This document shows positions 187 to 8,500 of a stretch of DNA of 12,190 nucleotides, in pieces; position 1 is the first letter of the stretch; each line of letters starts with the position of its first letter. The translations under genes were made by a program, and so were the position numbers. The notes under the pieces were generated by a model. It ran no database searches, was not told the DNA's origin, and saw nothing but the letters and a program-made list of their open reading frames with translations. Source of the DNA: an uncultured beta proteobacterium (lineage in GTDB: Bacteria > Pseudomonadota > Gammaproteobacteria > Burkholderiales > Burkholderiaceae_C); the NCBI GenBank assembly GCA_903920405.1, contig CAIXMC010000274.1:1-12190 (forward strand), read 5' to 3'.

Positions 187-214
187 ATAAAAATATCGGC
201 TTTAGGTTAAAGCC
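187..214 (-). terminator. Probable intrinsic terminator of the ridA-alaS unit
   Basis: On the minus strand GGCTTTA-ACC-TAAAGCC forms a perfect 7-bp stem with a 3-nt loop (plus positions 198-214). It overlaps the alaS stop codon at 207-209. It is followed at once by a T-rich run, GATATTTTTATTG (197 downwards). This is the standard layout of a Rho-independent terminator, although the stem has only three G-C pairs. It separates alaS from the heptamer array. Confidence 0.65.
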
Positions 215-2846
215 TGTGCAGCACCCACCCCGCCACGCTACCTAATGCCGCCTTGAGCTTGCCAGGGTCCGTTCCCCCCGCCATGGCCATGTCAGGCTTG
301 CCGCCGCCTTTGCCGCCCACTTGTGCTGCCACAAAATTCACCAGTTCGCCTGCGCTGATTTTGGCTGTGGTGTTGGGGGTGACGCCCACTGCCAATTGCA
401 CTTTGTCACCCTTGATGACACCTAGCACAATGATGGCGGTTTTAAGCTGGTCTTTGAACCGCGCAACGGTGTCGCGAAGTGTTGGAATATCGGCATTTTC
501 CATTTGGGCAACGAGCAGTTTGACACCCTGAATGTCTTGCACTTGATTCAATAAATCATCGCTTTGCGAACTGCTGTGCCTGGCTTTGAGGGTGGATACT
601 TCTTTTTCAAGGACTTTGATGCGTTCCTGCATCGACACTATCCGTTCGACAAGCGCTGTGACTGGCGTTTTCAGAATATTTGCTGCTTGGCTGATTGTGC
701 TTTCAAGATGTTGCAGATAGTTCAGGGCATAAACACCCGTCACAGCCTCAATGCGCCGAACGCCTGAAGCCACGCCGCTTTGGGCGACCACTTTGAACAG
801 GCCGATGTCGCCCGTTCGTTTCACATGGGTGCCGCCGCAGAGTTCGCGGCTTTGGCCAATGTCAAGGACGCGCACATGCTCACCGTATTTTTCGCCAAAC
901 AGCATCATGGCACCTGTTTTTTGCGCAGATTCCATGTCCATGACGCATGCGTTTGTGACGGTGTTGGCCAAAATTTCGGCATTGACACAGGCTTCCATCT
1001 CAATTATTTCTGCATCGGTGATGGGCGCGTTGTGGGTAAAGTCAAAGCGGGTGCGACTTTCATTGACCAGGCTGCCTTTTTGCTGCACATGGCTGCCCAA
1101 TACGTCACGCAGTGCGCGGTGCATCAGGTGGGTGGCCGAATGGTTGCGCTCGGTCGCACCACGCTGCGTTGCATTCACATGGGCGGTCACACTATCGCCC
1201 ATCTTCAGTACACCCGACTTGAGCACGCCGTGGTGCGCCCACACATCGGCCTTGACTTTTTGGGTGTCGGTTACGTCGAACAGTGCCAAGTCAGAAAAAA
1301 TGGCACCTGCATCGCCCACCTGCCCTCCGCTTTCGCCATAAAACGGTGTGGTAGCCAAAATGACCACGCCTTGTTGACCCTCCTTTAGAGTTAGAGTGCT
1401 AACGCTGATGCCATCTGCGTAGAGTGCTATTATTTCTGTAGTTACTGTCAATTGCTCGTAGCCCACAAATTGGCTGCCCGGGCCGCTGTAGTCCAGTGTC
1501 TTGTCCATTTTGAACTTGCCTGCTGCACGCGCTTTTGATTTTTGTTGTTCCATGGCGACGGCAAAACCCGCTTCATCAACCGTCAGACCCCGCTCACGGC
1601 ACACATCTGCTGACAAGTCGAGCGGAAAGCCGTAAGTGTCATGCAGTTTGAAGGCAACATCGCCGGGCAGCACCTTCACCTCCCCGGCAAGAGCTTCATC
1701 CAAAATCTGAAGACCTGTGTCAAGCGTCTCAAAAAACCGCTCTTCTTCGACCCTCAAAACGTCCATGATGCGATCAGCCTGTGCTGCCAACGAGGGGTAA
1801 GTGGACCCCATTAGCGCCACAAGATCAGGCACCAACTTATGAAAAAAAGGTGTTTTTTGACCTAATTTGTAGCCGTGGCGAATGGCGCGGCGAACAATGC
1901 GACGCTGCACATAACCACGCCCTTCGTTAGCAGGCAAGACACCGTCACTCACCAAAAAAGCTGTGGCGCGAATATGGTCGGCAATGACTTTGAGCGAGTT
2001 GTGATGTAAATCTGTGCAATGGGTTTCACGTGCAGCAGCCTTGATCAGCACATCAAACAAGTCAATTTCGTAGTTGCTATGAACGTTTTGCAAAATGGCA
2101 GCCAGGCGTTCCAGCCCCAAACCCGTATCGACGCAAGGCGCAGGTAAAGGTTGAAGCGTTCCATCGCTTTGCATGTCAAACTGCATGAACACGTTGTTCC
2201 AGATTTCAATGTAGCGGTCGCCGTCTTGATCAGGGCTGCCCGGCGGGCCACCGAGAACATCTGGGCCGTGGTCGAAAAAAATTTCACTGCACGGGCCACA
2301 AGGGCCGGTGTCGGCCATCATCCAGAAATTGTCAGAGGCATACTTTGCGCCTTTGTTGTCACCAATGCGAACCACACGCTCATGGGGCAGGCCGATGGTT
2401 TGGGTCCAGATGGCGTAGGCCTCGTCGTCATCAATATAAACCGTAGCCCATAGCTTGTCTGCTGGCAATTGATAGACCTGTGTGAGCAGTTCCCACGCCC
2501 ATTGCAGGGCTTCTCGCTTGAAATAATCGCCAAAGCTCCAGTTGCCCAGCATCTCGAAAAACGTGTGGTGACGTGCGGTGTAGCCCACGTTTTCGAGGTC
2601 ATTGTGTTTGCCTCCTGCGCGCAAACAGGCTTGTACGGACGCTGCACGAACATAGCTGCGCTGGTCTGTACCCAAAAACACATCCTTGAACTGCACCATG
2701 CCGGAGTTGGTGAACATCAGCGTGGGGTCATTACCGGGCACCAGCGGGCTACTTTGCACCACCGTATGGCCTTTGGAGGCGAAGAAGTCGAGAAAGGTTT
2801 TGCGAATGCCAGCGACAGTGGCACAAGTGTTGGAGGATGAGGTCAT
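207..2846 (-). CDS. alaS: Alanyl-tRNA synthetase
   Basis: Charges tRNA-Ala with alanine in the cytoplasm and hydrolyses mischarged Ser- and Gly-tRNA-Ala. The 879-residue length is normal for bacterial AlaRS. The class II catalytic domain is at about residues 10-260, beginning with the typical [10 protein letters not shown], then [10 protein letters not shown] and [13 protein letters not shown]. The editing domain shows its zinc motif as HSATH (H569, H573) and CGGTH (C670, H674). A coiled region lies near 735-775, and the C-terminal C-Ala domain carries the glycine-rich [15 protein letters not shown] at 844-858. The ATG start at 2846 fits the family N-terminus and no other start is near. Oddly there is no Shine-Dalgarno sequence: five TGGAA units abut the start codon. 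Residues 469-484 coincide with a copy of the 48-bp element described below. Lies 30 bp after ridA and is probably co-transcribed. Confidence 0.99.
1395..1442 (-). repeat. 48-bp interspersed element, copy C, inside alaS
   Basis: Reading the minus strand from 1442, these 48 bases align without gaps to the copies at 3369-3416 (28 of 48 identical, hand count), 8453-8500 (27) and 6216-6263 (24). It starts exactly on codon 469 of alaS and is translated as [16 protein letters not shown]. It uses ATA twice in a row, and the next codons include CTA twice, which look unusual beside the rest of the gene. Against this, ALY-DG is typical of AlaRS at this point, so the match could be partial or coincidental. 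It is the least certain of the four copies. Confidence 0.45.
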
Positions 2847-2870
2847 GGAATGGAATGGAATGGAATGGAA
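2846..2870. repeat. Pentanucleotide microsatellite (TGGAA x5) abutting the alaS start codon
   Basis: Five perfect TGGAA units on the plus strand (TTCCA on the coding strand). The last base of the array, read in coding direction, is the A of the alaS ATG. The array fills almost all of the 30-bp gap between ridA (stop at 2877-2879) and alaS and occupies the place where a ribosome-binding site would be. The coding strand here is pyrimidine-rich and has no AGGAGG-like stretch. Confidence 0.95.
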
Positions 2871-2876
2871 AATGGG

Positions 2877-3335
2877 TCAAGCGACTTCGGCAATCATTTC
2901 AATTTCAACACACGCACCCAAAGGGATTTGCGCCACGCCAAAAGCGCTGCGGGCGTGGGTACCTTTGTCTGCGCCAAAGACTTGAAGCATTAGCTCGCTT
3001 GCACCGTTGGTGACCAAATGTTGCTCAACAAAATCAGCCGTGGAGTTCACCAGCGACATCAGCTTGACAATGCGCCTGACACGATTCAAGTCTCCCACTG
3101 CGGTGTTCAAAGTTCCCAAAAGGTCAATGGCGATAGAACGAGCTGCCGCCTGCCCTTCATGTGTATTAATATTTTTACCCAACTGCCCTGTCCAGGGTTT
3201 TCCCTCTTTTCGAGCAATATGGCCGCTTAAAAACACCAGTTTGCCACTTTGCACAAACGGCACATAGGCAGCTACAGGAACGCTCACCGGTGGCAATACG
3301 ATGCCAAGTTCGGTCAGTCGGGTGTAAATGCTCAT
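2877..3335 (-). CDS. RidA/YjgF-family protein (probable enamine/imine deaminase)
   Basis: A 152-residue member of the longer branch of the RidA (YjgF/YER057c/UK114) family, annotated in many genomes as endoribonuclease L-PSP. Classical RidA hydrolyses reactive 2-aminoacrylate and related enamines made by PLP enzymes such as threonine dehydratase. The family signature is seen at the C-terminus as HARSAFGVAQIPLGACVEIE: R129 corresponds to the substrate carboxylate-binding Arg of E. coli RidA (R105), and E144, 15 residues on, to its E120. LVFLSGHI at 33-40 is the usual first beta strand. The ATG at 3335 follows GTGGGAAA, a weak Shine-Dalgarno. It ends 30 bp before alaS, so the two are likely one transcript. 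The substrate of this subfamily is not established and the label deaminase is by family only. Confidence 0.9.
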   Translation of the reverse strand: MSIYTRLTELGIVLPPVSVPVAAYVPFVQSGKLVFLSGHIARKEGKPWTGQLGKNINTHEGQAAARSIAIDLLGTLNTAVGDLNRVRRIVKLMSLVNSTADFVEQHLVTNGASELMLQVFGADKGTHARSAFGVAQIPLGACVEIEMIAEVA

Positions 3336-3368
3336 GTGAATTTCCCACTAAAATTAATGATGAAAAGT

Positions 3369-3416
3369 GGCTGTAACGCCCGTCCAATAAGCATAGTCAG
3401 CTACTAATTTGATAGT
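3369..3416 (-). repeat. 48-bp interspersed element, copy A, in the ridA leader
   Basis: Lies between the end of fapA (3446) and the start of ridA (3335). On the minus strand it begins ACTATCAAATTAGTAGCTG and ends ACGGGCGTTACAGCC. It aligns without gaps to copy B (29 of 48 identical, including a shared ACGGGCGTTA) and copy D (28 of 48). A further GCTTC is shared with copy B nine bases before the element. The frame-0 translation would be TIKLVADYAYWTGVTA, with no stop. It could carry or interrupt the ridA promoter; I see no convincing -35/-10 pair nearby. Confidence 0.8.
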
Positions 3417-3445
3417 TGTAGAAGCGGCTTGGGATATGATCAACA

Positions 3446-5422
3446 TCAAGTGCTGTATTTCCATTCCAGGCTGCCATGATCATCAGAGTAAATGCACCAG
3501 CGTGCATTAACTCGAGTACGCAGGAGATTGTGCAATTCCTTACCTGCTACGCCTTCAAAATGGGCCTCACCGTTTTGTGTGTGGATTTGTTGCACCACGG
3601 TGCTGCCGACGATCTTGGCAATTTTACATACCATGCCTTCAGACAGGGCGTTGTGCGCACTTATGAAATTTTCATGTTTTTTGCGCTTGGCAACCAGAGA
3701 TACATGCAGTTCGTCTTTTTCGGCCATGAGTTTTTCCATCAGTTTGATCGACGGTTGATGCCGTTTTTGCATCTGACGCAAATTCTGTTCCTGCGCAGAA
3801 GTCAATTCGAGTTTTTTTGATTGAACCATCTCTTTAATGGCCAGAAACCTGGAAAAATCCTGATCTGACTTGACCTTGTTCATGGCCGCAAGTGTTGCAT
3901 CCATCAGCCCCTGAACTTCCGTTACAGCTTCCTTCAATTTTGCGTTTCGGCGGTTGAACTCCTCAGGGTCAGGAACGGCCATCGACACCATGGTGGCATC
4001 GTCTTTGCGAACATCTGACATGCGAATGATGGCTGACCTTGCAGCGATGGAGCATCCCTGAGACCAATCCATGTACAACTCTTTTGCCACAATGTCACAG
4101 TTGATGGCATGACCAATGGTGACCGTTTGGCCGAAAATCATGCAGTTCTCGGCATACTTGACTTCAACGCTTCCGTTTTTTGATTCAATGGCGGCGTTGG
4201 AGGCCCGTCTCCGTATGACGATGCTGCCGCCATAGCTCCTGGCGCTGCCACCCACCAAGCTATCTTCCATCACAATGCGTCCACCGTACGAGATCAACGA
4301 TCCATAGACCGCTGACGTGAACTTCATGTTCTTTCCTTCTACCAGCCGACCTTCCTGAACTTCTCCGTGCTCAATAAACTCTTCAACGGTCAACGAAAGG
4401 TCGCCGGTTGTTTTGGTGCTAATGCCTTCGCTGTTCTCAATTTTGAGGGTGACAGATATCAGGTTCGATTGCACATCGATAGCCAGAAAACCATCGGCAA
4501 CAGCCACAATGAACTGAATGCCATCAATCAGTTCGATCTTTGTTCCTGGGCCTGAAATTCGTTCAAAATCAATATCCTTGGGTATCTCTGGATGGACAAC
4601 CTCGCCGGTGACCTTGTAGCCTGGTTTGCCAAATTGTCGAGGTATTTTGCTAACCACCTTTTGATCTTTGAGAATTTGGGGAAACCGGTTCTTGAAACGT
4701 CGCAAATCAGCGATGCCCGCCCTGATCATGGGAGAGTCGTCACGGTGAAGTTCTTCGTATTCTTCCTTTAACTCAGCGTCACGCCCAGGCGTGGGTACGA
4801 GTTGGGTGGCAATCACTGCACGAACCATTTTGGTCAGTGCGATTCCGGTTTCAACGGCTTTCACGTCCATGCCAAAGCGCACACCCTTGCACCACATGTC
4901 CGTCACGAACTCATCAAAATCAAGTTGGGTTGGCTGAGTGCGGATTTGTTCATCGTAACCCAAAATCGTGACCACGCCATATTTATCGGTATCCCCGTAA
5001 ATGGGATTACGGTAATGGTGTTCAAAAAAAACGGGTTCAAACATGTACTCGGCGCGTGCGCCGCCGTCCATTAACCGAACCTCCTTGTACAGTGCCCTGC
5101 GTTCAGGCACAAAGGCCACGATTTTCCTGGCCAGCAGGATGAAGCCGTCTTGCTTCACCAGAGGCTCGACTGGGTAAGCCAGGTTTTGAAACAACGGGTA
5201 ATCCAATCCACAAAACCGCCAACCCTGCGCAAACAGATGATCCACAAAGGTTCGGAAGTTACGGTCTGAAGTGACCAACGAAGGATTCACAAAAACGCCA
5301 TCCTGACGGCTTTGAATGAATGAAGGCAGAGTCGGCAATGGAGGATCAGATATCACATCCAAAGTGTTCGGCAAAATACGATAGACCTGCATATCAGAAG
5401 GCGTGTGTGGTACGTTGGACAT
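3446..5422 (-). CDS. FapA/DUF342 family protein
   Basis: A 658-residue soluble protein related to FapA (DUF342, named for flagellar assembly in Vibrio). No signal peptide or membrane segment is visible. Numbering from the chosen start, an N-terminal region (about 1-210) precedes the conserved DUF342 part, with KPGYKVTGEVV near 266 and DGIQFIVAVADGFL near 300. A glycine-rich repetitive beta stretch follows at about 365-470 (SAVYGSLISYGG, GGSARSYGGSIVI). A charged helical region at about 485-590 probably forms a coiled coil. The ATG at 5422 is chosen because it follows amiC by only 16 bp and has GGTAAGAGA upstream. A longer reading frame back to a TTG at 5491 would overlap amiC by 53 bp. Last gene of the tsaE-amiC group. 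No flagellar, pilus or chemotaxis genes are nearby, so its role is unknown; a part in motility or cell-envelope control is only a guess. Confidence 0.88.
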   Translation of the reverse strand: MSNVPHTPSDMQVYRILPNTLDVISDPPLPTLPSFIQSRQDGVFVNPSLVTSDRNFRTFVDHLFAQGWRFCGLDYPLFQNLAYPVEPLVKQDGFILLARKIVAFVPERRALYKEVRLMDGGARAEYMFEPVFFEHHYRNPIYGDTDKYGVVTILGYDEQIRTQPTQLDFDEFVTDMWCKGVRFGMDVKAVETGIALTKMVRAVIATQLVPTPGRDAELKEEYEELHRDDSPMIRAGIADLRRFKNRFPQILKDQKVVSKIPRQFGKPGYKVTGEVVHPEIPKDIDFERISGPGTKIELIDGIQFIVAVADGFLAIDVQSNLISVTLKIENSEGISTKTTGDLSLTVEEFIEHGEVQEGRLVEGKNMKFTSAVYGSLISYGGRIVMEDSLVGGSARSYGGSIVIRRRASNAAIESKNGSVEVKYAENCMIFGQTVTIGHAINCDIVAKELYMDWSQGCSIAARSAIIRMSDVRKDDATMVSMAVPDPEEFNRRNAKLKEAVTEVQGLMDATLAAMNKVKSDQDFSRFLAIKEMVQSKKLELTSAQEQNLRQMQKRHQPSIKLMEKLMAEKDELHVSLVAKRKKHENFISAHNALSEGMVCKIAKIVGSTVVQQIHTQNGEAHFEGVAGKELHNLLRTRVNARWCIYSDDHGSLEWKYST

Positions 5423-5438
5423 TTCTGTATCTCTTACC

Positions 5439-6836
5439 TTACGTCGATCTGTCGCGTGCCAAGGGTGGGTTTTTGGCAAAGTAGCCTTCAATGCCGCGCA
5501 TTAACGCATGGGTCAGTTGTTCCTGATAGTCATCGCTGTTGAGTTTGGCTTCTTCCTCTGGGTTACTGATGAAAGCAGCTTCGACAAGCACGCTTGGAAT
5601 GTCTGGCGCCCTGAGCACCAAAAATCCAGCCTGCTCTACCTTGGGTTTATGCAGCTTGCCAACTTTGCCCATTTCTCCCAACATGGTATTGCCTAATTGC
5701 AAACTGTCCTTGATTTGCGCTGTAGTGCTCATGTCTAGCAAGGTTCGTGTAATTTGTATATCTTTGGCTTGGACGTTCAGTCCGCCGATCACATCAGCTT
5801 TGTTTTCCTGGGTTGCCATCCAGCGTGCTGTTGTGCTGGATGCACCGCGTTGGCTGAGTGCAAACACGCTGGCACCTTGCGGGCGCTGGGTAAAAAATGC
5901 GTCGGCATGCAAACTGATAAAAAGGTCAGCCTGCACCCTGCGAGCTTTATTGACGCGCGTATGCAGCGGTACAAAATAATCGGCATCGCGTGTTAAGTAG
6001 GCGCGCATGGCATTGCCGTTCACCGTAGTGGCGTTGACGCGCTCACGCAGCCTGTGTGCCAGACGCAACACGACATCTTTTTCAAGCGTACCACTTGGCC
6101 CGATAGCTCCCGGGTCTTCGCCACCATGGCCTGCATCAATGGCGATGATGATGAGTCGATTTGTGACGGATGCTGCCTGGGTCTTGACAATCTGTAAATT
6201 TTGAGTATCTTTTTGGGCGCTAACGCCCGTGGTTGTAGCGCGACTAGCTATCAAGTTAATAGCATCTGAAGCAGGAATGGAGGCCACCTTCGGACGAAAA
6301 GTGTTGGACTGAAACTTCGTTTTTTGCACAATCAATTCGCCCAGGGGGTCAGTAGGTGCGGATGTACGCTTGCCAACGCTGTCTTTGATGCGATCGTTAA
6401 TCAAGGCGGCCAATGGATCAGGCGTTTGAAGGGGATAGAGGTCAAACACCAACCTGTGCTGGTATGCGGCCACTGGTGGCAACGTGAAGACTTGAGGTGC
6501 AATGGGCTGTTTGAGGTCCACCACCAATCGAACCACATCAGGGCCAAATTGCCCTACCCGAATGCCGTTGATGGTGGGATCGGTCGGCCCCACTTTGGCC
6601 ACCAGTTCTTTCAAGGCGGCATTGAGCGTAATACCTTTGACATCGACAGCCAAACGTGGCGGGTTGGGAACAAAATTTTGCACAAAGGTCATGGGTGCGT
6701 CAGATTCGATGGTCACGCGAGAATAGTCGTCAGACGGCCACACACGAACCGCCACAATCGCGGCACCGCGTGCCAGTTGCTGTGTGCCTAGCAATAGAAC
6801 CAAAGCACCCTGTTGTAGAAAATTGCGTCGATTCAT
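5439..6836 (-). CDS. amiC: N-acetylmuramoyl-L-alanine amidase, AmiC type, Tat-exported
   Basis: Cleaves the amide bond between N-acetylmuramic acid and the stem peptide of peptidoglycan, chiefly in daughter-cell separation, in the periplasm. The 465-residue protein starts MNRRNFLQQGALVLLLG, a twin-arginine signal (R3 R4, F6 L7, hydrophobic core to about 17), cut probably after about residue 25. An AMIN domain (about 28-135) targets it to the septum. A linker of about 135-225 follows, then the Amidase_3 zinc domain: IDAGHGGED (H237), E252, SLHAD (H310) as zinc ligands and VLVEAAF (E419) as catalytic Glu. All key residues are present. The start ATG overlaps the tsaE stop as ATGA (6833-6836) and lacks a clear Shine-Dalgarno, so translation is likely coupled. 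Linker residues 192-207 are encoded by a copy of the 48-bp element. Confidence 0.97.
   Translation of the reverse strand: MNRRNFLQQGALVLLLGTQQLARGAAIVAVRVWPSDDYSRVTIESDAPMTFVQNFVPNPPRLAVDVKGITLNAALKELVAKVGPTDPTINGIRVGQFGPDVVRLVVDLKQPIAPQVFTLPPVAAYQHRLVFDLYPLQTPDPLAALINDRIKDSVGKRTSAPTDPLGELIVQKTKFQSNTFRPKVASIPASDAINLIASRATTTGVSAQKDTQNLQIVKTQAASVTNRLIIIAIDAGHGGEDPGAIGPSGTLEKDVVLRLAHRLRERVNATTVNGNAMRAYLTRDADYFVPLHTRVNKARRVQADLFISLHADAFFTQRPQGASVFALSQRGASSTTARWMATQENKADVIGGLNVQAKDIQITRTLLDMSTTAQIKDSLQLGNTMLGEMGKVGKLHKPKVEQAGFLVLRAPDIPSVLVEAAFISNPEEEAKLNSDDYQEQLTHALMRGIEGYFAKNPPLARDRST
6216..6263 (-). repeat. 48-bp interspersed element, copy B, inside the amiC linker
   Basis: Minus strand from 6263: begins GCTATTAACTTGATAGCTAG and ends ACGGGCGTTAGCGCC. 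It matches copies A and D at 29 of 48 positions each, without gaps. It starts exactly at codon 192 of amiC and encodes AINLIASRATTTGVSA in the non-conserved linker between the AMIN and amidase domains. Its length of 16 codons keeps the frame. The 3' part GGGCG-TTAG-CGCCC is a perfect 5-bp hairpin. Confidence 0.85.
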
Positions 6837-7327
6837 GATATGACAGCACAGGCTTGCAGTAAGGTCATTCCCACATCTGTGTTGGCCGTGAACGTGACCT
6901 GCCGCGCATTTTCATCCACCACATAAAGATACACCACCAAGTCAGACAGAGGTAAACAGGGCGCAGCTTTGTCCGGCCATTCGACCAATTTGAGGCCAGC
7001 ATTGGCAAAAATATCACGAAAGCCGGCCTCTTCCCACTCGCGAGGGTCATGAAACCTGTAAAAGTCAAAGTGCCAAATGTCAAGCGTGGGTAACTCATAC
7101 GGTTCGACCACGGCATACGTTGGGCTTTTGACACGTCCTTGCACCCCGAGCGCGTGCAGAAGATAGCGAACCAGCGTGGTTTTTCCTGCCCCCAAGTCAC
7201 CTTGCAATGCGATAAAGGCATGACGCAATGTAGGTTGTGCGGCCAATGTAACGGCAAACTGCTGCGTTGCCTGCTCATCATGCCACACGGCGGTTAAAAC
7301 CCTATCAACAGTTTGGGAACTCATCAT
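6833..7327 (-). CDS. tsaE: tRNA threonylcarbamoyladenosine biosynthesis ATPase TsaE
   Basis: P-loop ATPase that works with TsaB and TsaD to attach threonylcarbamoyl to A37 of ANN-decoding tRNAs (t6A). The length of 164 residues is typical. The Walker A motif is GDLGAGKTT (43-51). It is followed by the family-specific KSPTYAVVEPY (67-77), HFDFYRF (86-92) and LVEWPDKA (114-121). Two ATGs are adjacent, 7327 and 7324, and the sequence does not decide between them. No Shine-Dalgarno is visible before either. First gene of the group tsaE-amiC-fapA, with a 4-bp overlap with amiC. It diverges from queG, another tRNA-modification gene, across only 16 bp. The partners tsaB and tsaD are not in the window. 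Confidence 0.97.
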   Translation of the reverse strand: MMSSQTVDRVLTAVWHDEQATQQFAVTLAAQPTLRHAFIALQGDLGAGKTTLVRYLLHALGVQGRVKSPTYAVVEPYELPTLDIWHFDFYRFHDPREWEEAGFRDIFANAGLKLVEWPDKAAPCLPLSDLVVYLYVVDENARQVTFTANTDVGMTLLQACAVIS

Positions 7328-7343
7328 TTTTTAAAATAAGCAG
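7328..7343. promoter_or_regulatory. 16-bp divergent gap between tsaE and queG
   Basis: The whole gap is an A+T-rich TTTTTAAAATAAGCAG. TAAAAT at 7332-7337 could serve as a -10 box for queG, and its complement TATTTT lies suitably for tsaE. No matching -35 box is evident, and neither gene has a good Shine-Dalgarno sequence. Promoter elements for each gene must lie largely inside the coding sequence of the other, or the transcripts have very short leaders. This is an inference from spacing. Confidence 0.35.
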
Positions 7344-8432
7344 ATGAACAAATCAGTAGCATATTCCACATCAGACATTGACGCGTGGGTCTTCAAAATT
7401 CAGGATTGGGGGCACGCATTGGGGTTTTCACATATGGGCATCACAGGGGTGGATTTATCCACCGCAGAGCCTGGATTATCCGCGTGGCTGGCGCAAGGTT
7501 TTCATGGGAATATGGCTTATATGGTGAAACATGGTATGAAGCGCGCCCGTCCTGCACAACTGGTGGCAGGCACAGTGAGCGTGATTACCGCACGCATGGA
7601 CTATTTGCCGGCGAATACGCCCACACAGTGGCAGACGGTTGAATTGGAACGGTTGCAACATCCCCTGGGAGCTTATGTCTCGGTTTATGCACGTGGGCGT
7701 GATTACCACAAGGTGATGCGCAGTCGCTTGCAAAAACTCTGTCACACCATTTCACAAGAGTTGGGTCCTTGGGGCTATCGCGTATTTACCGATTCTGCCC
7801 CCGTTTTAGAAGCAGAACTGGCCGAGCGAAGTGGCTTGGGATGGCGTGGCAAGCATACTTTGGTCGTCAGTCGTACAGCGGGGTCGATGTTTTTTCTTGG
7901 CGAAATTTTTGTGGATGTGGTACTGCCGCACAGTTTACCAGTCACCAGTCATTGCGGCCATTGCAGCGCTTGCATGAACGTCTGCCCCACGCAGGCCATT
8001 GTGGCACCCTACCGACTTGATGCACGGCGCTGCATTTCCTATTTGACCATTGAACACACAGGTGTCATTCCACTGGAACTGCGCCCTCTCATAGGCAATC
8101 GGATTTATGGGTGTGATGACTGCCAGTTGATTTGCCCCTGGAACAAGTTTGCACAAGTCAGTGCACTGCCAGACTTTAAGGAGCGCAACCCGTTGGCAAG
8201 CGATCAGCTTGTCACCCTTTTTGGCTGGAGTGAAGAAAAATTTTTGCATCAAACAGAAGGCAGTCCGATTCGCCGCATAGGCCACGAACGCTGGCTACGC
8301 AATATTGCCGTGGCACTGGGCAATGCCCTTCGTGCGAAGGAGCAACACCCTGCGGTGGTCGCCGCGCTATTGCAGCACGCCAAACATCCCAGTGCGTTGG
8401 TGCGTGCCCATGTGAGCTGGGCGCTAGGCTAA
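7344..8432 (+). CDS. queG: Epoxyqueuosine reductase QueG
   Basis: Cobalamin- and Fe-S-dependent enzyme for the last step of queuosine synthesis, reducing epoxyqueuosine to queuosine at position 34 of His, Asn, Asp and Tyr tRNAs. The protein has 362 residues, close to the usual length. The catalytic Asp lies in FTDSAPVLEAELA (D150). Cysteines for the two 4Fe-4S clusters are in HCGHCSACMNVCP (C204, C207, C210, C214), C230, and CDDCQLICP (C257, C260, C264). A HEAT-like tail at about 310-362 (EGSPIRRIGHERWLRNIAV) is typical of the family and contacts tRNA. The ATG at 7344 is the first one and gives the normal N-terminus. It is the only plus-strand gene and converges on dnaJ. Confidence 0.97.
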   Translation: MNKSVAYSTSDIDAWVFKIQDWGHALGFSHMGITGVDLSTAEPGLSAWLAQGFHGNMAYMVKHGMKRARPAQLVAGTVSVITARMDYLPANTPTQWQTVELERLQHPLGAYVSVYARGRDYHKVMRSRLQKLCHTISQELGPWGYRVFTDSAPVLEAELAERSGLGWRGKHTLVVSRTAGSMFFLGEIFVDVVLPHSLPVTSHCGHCSACMNVCPTQAIVAPYRLDARRCISYLTIEHTGVIPLELRPLIGNRIYGCDDCQLICPWNKFAQVSALPDFKERNPLASDQLVTLFGWSEEKFLHQTEGSPIRRIGHERWLRNIAVALGNALRAKEQHPAVVAALLQHAKHPSALVRAHVSWALG

Positions 8433-8452
8433 AAAAATAGAGAACGATTTAT

Positions 8453-8500
8453 GCCTCCAAGGCTTATGCAGTAAGCGTTGATAGCTATCAAAACAATAGC
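8453..8500 (-). repeat. 48-bp interspersed element, copy D, between queG and dnaJ
   Basis: Minus strand from 8500: begins GCTATTGTTTTGATAGCTAT and ends CCTTGGAGGC. Hand-counted identity is 29 of 48 to copy B and 28 of 48 to copy A, without gaps. It contains the perfect 14-bp palindrome TTGATAGCTATCAA (8478-8491), enclosed by AAGGCT (8459-8464) and AGCCTT (8498-8503). It also has a small 3' hairpin GCCT-TGG-AGGC. It sits between two convergent genes, so its folding may serve as a bidirectional transcription stop, but there is no adjoining T-run. Confidence 0.8.

Follow-up and report, generated by a model that had tools for sequence, protein, structure and literature searches.

A dispersed 48-bp DNA motif of a beta proteobacterium and its relatives, and the evidence on whether it is kept in place

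A survey published in 2017 reported pairs of motifs that were left unexplained, among them ATAGCT(N)22CAAAAG in Polaromonas naphthalenivorans and GCTTAT(N)5AAGCG in Acidovorax ebreus, with 125 and 114 copies that are mostly intergenic and often located between convergent genes (PMC5217627). The highest number of motif pairs in this survey (140) is that of Rhodoferax ferrireducens T118. DNA uptake sequences of Neisseriaceae and Pasteurellaceae are present in hundreds to thousands of copies, in and outside genes, and differ between species as dialects (PMC3630211, PMC1939737, PMC2346458); it has been suggested that they arise through point mutation of sequence already present and not by insertion (PMC1939737). 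Here, we analyze four copies of a 48-bp element found in a 12,190-nt stretch of contig CAIXMC010000274.1 (hereafter the window), which belongs to the genome of an uncultured beta proteobacterium (the window genome, G000). Literature searches found no published description of the whole element. On balance, we lean towards the view that all four segments represent a long DNA motif kept in place by a process acting on DNA and not on RNA or peptide. A sequence-specific DNA-binding protein would read this motif, sites would arise and persist in place and, inside genes, they would be found only where an alanine-rich peptide is tolerated.

The four copies are listed below with their scores for two matrices, one of 48 columns iterated on a 622,535-base sample of the window genome (own-genome matrix) and one built from another species, Rhodoferax lithotrophicus, alone.

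1395..1442, minus strand: motif copy inside alaS, sense phase 0; 36.0 bits (own-genome matrix), 26.9 bits (R. lithotrophicus matrix)
3369..3416, minus strand: intergenic motif copy, downstream of a FapA-like gene; 53.4 and 39.3 bits
6216..6263, minus strand: motif copy inside an amiC-type gene, sense phase 0, peptide AINLIASRATTTGVSA; 34.5 and 27.7 bits
8453..8500, minus strand: intergenic motif copy between the convergent genes queG and dnaJ; 47.7 and 38.7 bits

The earlier note on this DNA, made from the sequence alone, had aligned these segments without a gap, all on the minus strand, and our recheck bore this out. With A for the copy at 3369, B for 6216, C for 1395 and D for 8453, it also reproduced the six identities that had been counted by hand (AB 29, BD 29, AD 28, AC 28, CD 27 and BC 24 of 48), the quoted peptides, the absence of stops in phase 0 of all four copies and the stop at positions 11-13 of phase +1 in four of four; a second stop at 14-16 is likewise present in all of them. 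The similarity of the four copies is far beyond chance: the own-genome matrix gives them 34.5-53.4 bits, and with the R. lithotrophicus matrix the rest of the window reaches at most -2.7 bits, except for an 8.1-bit match on the palindromic left half of the 6216 copy. The motif carries about 43 bits of information, has invariant columns (TAGC at 14-17, GC at 25-26) and shows two imperfect dyads, GCTAT-N7-ATAGC and CGC-N11-GCG. Weaker conservation, averaged over 115 copies of the window genome, reaches about column 66 (ATTT at 51-54, AA at 62-63). Species variants also occur, for instance TTAGGCAATAAATACGCCGGCTAGAGGC in one genus and GCCCTT...AAGGGC in genome G040.

The four copies belong to a large dispersed family, whose reality is established by the excess of profile matches over shuffled and reversed sequence. 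The own-genome matrix finds 115 sites in the 622,535 bases of the window genome, and no site of at least 12 bits in an order-2 shuffled or a reversed version of this sample. Twenty stretches entered the sample on account of matches in their contigs; contigs C1-C71 alone (three cut at 20 kb) hold 83 sites in 468,230 bases, that is 177 per Mb. In R. lithotrophicus (G010), 151 sites of at least 14 bits were found in 800,000 bases (189 per Mb, or about 930 per genome by scaling), and none of at least 14 bits in the reversed control; this sample consists of forty 20-kb stretches from the first two thirds of a single contig of 4,936,681 bases. Nineteen of the 115 sites of the window genome are near-identical, being carried inside a separate 213-bp miniature inverted-repeat transposable element (MITE) with terminal inverted repeats. 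They are included in the count of 115 and in the average of column conservation, and were excluded from the analyses of phase, information, covariation, spacing and strand, and orthologs.

Relatives were scanned with a pattern allowing up to three mismatches, which matches 18 of 40 genomes, the window's own counted. In 23 other genomes of the same genus, copy numbers are 61 to 466 for 12 genomes, 1-6 for 4 and zero for 7; 15 of 17 further same-genus or related genomes match, with 1 to 311 copies each. Within the window's family, matches were obtained in 105 of 299 genomes and 59 of 141 genera (own genome counted), with at least 10 copies in 77 of these 105 and counts that differ strongly inside genera. 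The motif is confined to this family: of 195 genomes representing 50 other families of the order, 8 gave a single match each, and 16 matched a backward control pattern. These family-wide matches and the intergenic copies support the earlier note, which had given as an unverified impression that intergenic regions of Comamonadaceae often contain such sequences.

Evidence of maintenance comes from orthologous positions. We compared 50 reciprocal-best gene pairs of the window genome and R. lithotrophicus (mean protein identity 73%). Genic sites are shared in four pairs and present only in R. lithotrophicus in two (18.5 and 24.6 bits; Fisher p 6.5e-5). Over the same 50 pairs, sites 3' of the genes are shared in four cases and unshared in six (p 0.006), and sites 5' of the genes are shared in two and unshared in none (p 0.001). 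In five distinct intergenic ortholog pairs, the orientation relative to the gene is retained and 23-29 of 48 bases are shared (mean 26.6), as compared with 25.0 (sd 3.7) for random pairs of copies; the four genic ortholog pairs share 27-35 (mean 31.8). Since similarity within the intergenic pairs does not exceed that of random ones and the motif nevertheless persists, the free columns are saturated between genes. Persistence at the same place despite this saturation is, on these small numbers, the strongest sign that the copies are maintained. In the near relative G056 (about 93-97% identical in the compared stretches), all eight orthologous places that are spanned keep a copy, three of them weak (15.3, 24.6 and 27.6 bits); a ninth match that spans the copy has no more than 73% identity, and at the remaining sites the contig ends, the flanks are broken or the spacer has been replaced. 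The 8453 copy is common to the window genome and its close relative L143. Among the 72 intergenic copies of R. lithotrophicus, no pair is clearly closer than expected from shuffled columns (minimum of 8 differences, against a mean of 9.0). Moreover, when the left and right halves of the motif were located separately, 128 of 129 pairs had the canonical spacing over the distances tested, a figure that concerns insertions and deletions between the halves.

Three genes of the window that host or adjoin copies are listed below.

207..2846, minus strand: alaS, host gene of the 1395 copy (Pfam tRNA-synt_2c, tRNA_SAD, DHHA1)
3446-5491, minus strand: FapA-like gene
5439..6836, minus strand: gene for an amiC-type N-acetylmuramoyl-L-alanine amidase, host gene of the 6216 copy (Pfam AMIN, Amidase_3)

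Aligned with 19 homologues, in all of which this region is conserved, the alaS copy shows no insert; the only additional residues are two that directly follow it. The mutL site, a short distance past GFRGEAL, is translated as AINSIADCAILSRASG or something close to it. We scored 40 distinct mutL sequences with the R. lithotrophicus matrix: 14 have at least 30 bits (one of these had served to train the matrix), 26 are below 20 and none lies between. The peptide of the high group resembles that of the low group, and its codons are ATA (13 of 14), GCT (12 of 14), AGG (13 of 14) and GCT (11 of 14), where the low group has mostly ATT or ATC in place of ATA and CGC in place of AGG. In some mutL sequences, for instance L185 and L195, the resemblance to the motif is limited to the left half. 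The length difference at the mutL copy is 0 relative to three relatives without the site and 9 bp relative to a fourth. A hydrolase-like gene found at five loci carries a copy in antisense phase with a net length difference of 0 relative to relatives without the site, short gaps being present in two of three local alignments. Origin in place fits the conserved mutL and alaS sites, and point changes could likewise account for the hydrolase-like gene; amiC, dapF and aroA, with their length differences, fit it less clearly. The 6216 copy lies in the part of its host gene that encodes the linker joining AMIN to Amidase_3 (Pfam ranges 29-133 and 231-450; 80 relatives aligned). This linker is variable in length, which is compatible with an old insertion there. 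As a separate observation, two oppositely oriented copies, located in the ATPase domain and the linker respectively, occur in the mutL genes of several Rhodoferax and Curvibacter (for instance L169:16552 and 17379, L264:9049 and 8237). Elsewhere in the window, about 25 copies of a 7-bp unit (CCCACTT/CCCATTT) occupy positions 1-179, directly downstream of alaS, and synteny with L143, which is 94% identical, ends near the copy that follows the FapA-like gene (window ~3438, L143:9768).

Inside genes, the reading phase of the copies is far from random. The genic set comprises the sites wholly inside called genes, 32 from the window genome and 54 from R. lithotrophicus. Thirty of these 86 copies are in sense phase 0 and 35 in antisense phase 1, the others being in antisense 2 (8), sense 1 (6), antisense 0 (4) and sense 2 (3). 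The two main phases thus hold 65 of 86 copies, and 52 of 68 among copies of at least 30 bits. Taken as the extended element, the 125 intergenic copies are open in sense 2 (29), antisense 0 (31) and antisense 1 (31). Since sense 2 and antisense 0 are as open between genes as antisense 1, openness alone mispredicts the phases of genic copies: 36 are predicted in sense 2 and antisense 0 and 7 are observed, whereas 45 are predicted in the two preferred phases and 65 are observed. The excess has a simulated p of at most 5e-6 for both species and of 0.0034 for the window genome alone. The phase effect is real and strand-symmetric. The earlier note had proposed that the element lands in genes in one conserved phase; its strong phase preference stands, but there are two phases, one per strand. 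According to the peptides, both preferred phases read the palindromic GC steps as alanine codons. An alternative account, by which the phase would place conserved columns at wobble positions, is not supported, the information being equal across the three column classes.

Several observations weigh against a DNA motif kept in place. The base-by-base comparison of orthologs rests on five intergenic and four genic pairs, and genes were called by our own hexamer method. Weak sites are scarce (5 of 151 between 10 and 20 bits), whereas a gradual origin should leave many. Half copies occur, 19 of 148 left halves being without a right half and 33 of 141 right halves without a left one (0 and 6 in the reversed control). 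Motif columns may not be fully independent of one another, and the information content of the motif is far above that of known uptake sequences. As read from alignments with solved homologues, EPSP synthase (aroA) is 5 residues longer at the site and DapF about 10; comparisons of filled and empty amiC sites range from -93 to +36 bp, many of them from -57 to -93 bp. ComEC was not found in the motif-rich G000 and G023, both of which are incomplete, and relatives devoid of the motif do have it. Lastly, adjacent copies in R. lithotrophicus (sampled over 0-3.2 Mb) have the same orientation in 64% of cases against 49.7% when shuffled (P 0.00025).

This last point bears on the nature of the protein that would read the motif. 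One tentative possibility, suggested by the layout of the sites, is that each of them binds a chromosome-organising or other abundant DNA-binding protein and is kept by selection. The rigid spacing combined with imperfect dyads would suit such a site, as would indifference to the direction of transcription: in tandem spacers, copies on the same and the opposite strand number 20 and 18 in one species and 40 and 31 in the other, and genic copies in sense and antisense number 17 and 15 in the window genome and 22 and 32 in R. lithotrophicus, with no preference in any of these sets. Divergent regions hold few copies (7 of 58 and 6 of 95 classified sites), and orientation domains of megabase scale exist in R. 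lithotrophicus, with plus and minus copies numbering 34 and 17 below 1.1 Mb, 9 and 36 up to 2.1 Mb, 21 and 10 up to 2.75 Mb, and 9 and 15 beyond. However, these domains ignore replication arms and were not seen in the short contigs of the window genome (27 of 48 neighbours agree), copies lie inside the domains of core genes, and the motif is absent or nearly so from many species of the same genus (7 and 4 of 23). Segregation of strands by replication arm in R. lithotrophicus had been considered and was dropped, since spaced samples gave 53/59 and 20/19 in the two arms, as taken from GC skew.

The motif might instead be a DNA uptake, or self-recognition, sequence spread by biased transformation and recombination, a reading that is likewise tentative. 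As expected of an uptake sequence, over-representation is far above chance in both orientations. A drive of this type would fit evolution in place, dialects and patchiness, and would fit poorly the great length of the motif, the few weak intermediates, the lack of correlation between ComEC and the motif, and the orientation domains; sites of a chromosomal protein would fit these last four features better, but not patchiness. ComEC was found in 36 of 40 genomes, including motif-free ones, and not in G000, G023, G025 and G031. The orientation domains led us to lower slightly our estimate for uptake and to raise slightly that for a chromosomal protein. The fuller proposal, that Comamonadaceae possess a hitherto unrecognised self-DNA recognition system with the longest known motif of the uptake type, about 900 sites per genome, species dialects and the ability to rewrite codons of core genes (mutL, alaS) in place so that they approach the motif, would be more doubtful than either.

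We also consider it doubtful, and slightly more so, that the copies are a mobile repeat similar to the Rickettsia palindromic elements (RPEs), i.e. a short selfish element that was inserted between genes and, in frame, inside them and is now decaying. The phase preference inside genes, the length differences between filled and empty amiC, the net extra residues of EPSP synthase and DapF and the paucity of weak sites all speak for it, as do MITEs that carry the motif core. However, alaS and mutL contain no insert of 48 or 66 bp at their sites, so that the suggestion of the earlier note, an element landing in genes in the manner of RPEs, is not supported; it is further weakened by the genic sites common to distant species. 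Orthologous intergenic copies that are no more alike than random ones while still keeping the motif, a spacing between halves that almost never shifts, the lack of any clearly close pair among the 72 intergenic R. lithotrophicus copies, and retention at all eight spanned places in G056 are also at odds with it. Nor does the palindromic structure appear to be maintained, as would be expected of RPEs: there is no covariation within species, the columns of the 5-13 hairpin pairing no more than independence predicts (0.50 pooled, against 0.54 expected) and all six pairs of the second hairpin having z below 2 in each of two species, and one of eight copies folds as a single strand with z below -2, the other seven being above. 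Covariation in the second hairpin at 23-41 (z 3.5) and 27-37 (z 2.7) was an artefact of pooling and disappeared once species were separated. Given species variants such as C25 with G39 in G040, pairing may act over longer times.

Regarding the MITE-borne copies, the 213-bp element (for instance L049:11582-11797) holds the motif near its centre. The copy at L049:11664 is absent at the matching place in G056, where another repeat-like stretch with a similar core is found. Another self-complementary repeat, of about 165 bp, occurs at L041:10478-10643 and L044:17055-17222 and has more than 30 matches in G056.

Two other explanations are very improbable. A palindrome of the repetitive extragenic palindromic (REP) type moved by a REP-associated tyrosine (RAYT, Y1) transposase would fit the Y1_Tnp match found in the window genome and in all 23 other same-genus genomes searched, but Y1_Tnp is also present in motif-free species, hairpins do not covary, replication arms do not differ, and the RAYT of the window genome, the sole one examined, lies amid repeats of a different family, with the nearest motif copy about 940 bp away. 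This RAYT-type gene is located at 2084-2419 of L097 (contig C56 of G000), among classic GTAGCCCGGATG repeats. An RNA element, such as a terminator or an mRNA-stability hairpin, would be consistent with copies often lying near the 3' ends of upstream genes (medians of 31.5 and 28 bp in tandem spacers), but there is no orientation preference relative to transcription, no covariation, and no Rfam family match in the three sequences scanned (the window, L041 and L255).

If sites do persist in place at only about 73% protein identity, with complete turnover of their free columns, some protein must read a motif of 48-66 bp at hundreds of places per genome and would thereby shape the codons of core genes such as mutL. 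A motif acting at the DNA level and steering protein sequence genome-wide would then become testable. A caution also follows for other studies: what looks like a mobile element inserted in frame can turn out to be a motif of in situ origin.

Among known systems, the pairs of the 2017 survey are probably fragments of the 48-bp motif, as ATAGCT and GCTTAT-N5-AAGCG resemble its columns 13-18 and 25-40, and the two organisms belong to the same bacterial family as the window; the sections of that paper that deal with them describe neither the full element nor its phase in genes, its change in situ or positions common to orthologs (PMC5217627). The betaproteobacterial repeat element (BRE) is also dispersed in Comamonadaceae, as well as in Bordetella, with some copies within genes, but, according to the relevant parts of its description, it is about 90 bp long, has 69% G+C in Bordetella, is often in tandem and has only four copies in R. 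ferrireducens T118 (PMC3110155). RPEs, like the motif, lie in frame in many unrelated genes and encode a conserved peptide; they are, however, described in the pertinent passages as inserts of about 150 bp, whereas two conserved host genes of the motif show no insert, and the motif uses two phases (PMC10969869). Lastly, uptake sequences resemble the motif, whose own role in uptake is putative, by their many copies in and outside genes and their dialects, but the accounts cited above give them a length of about 9-12 bp, as compared with 48-66 bp for the motif.

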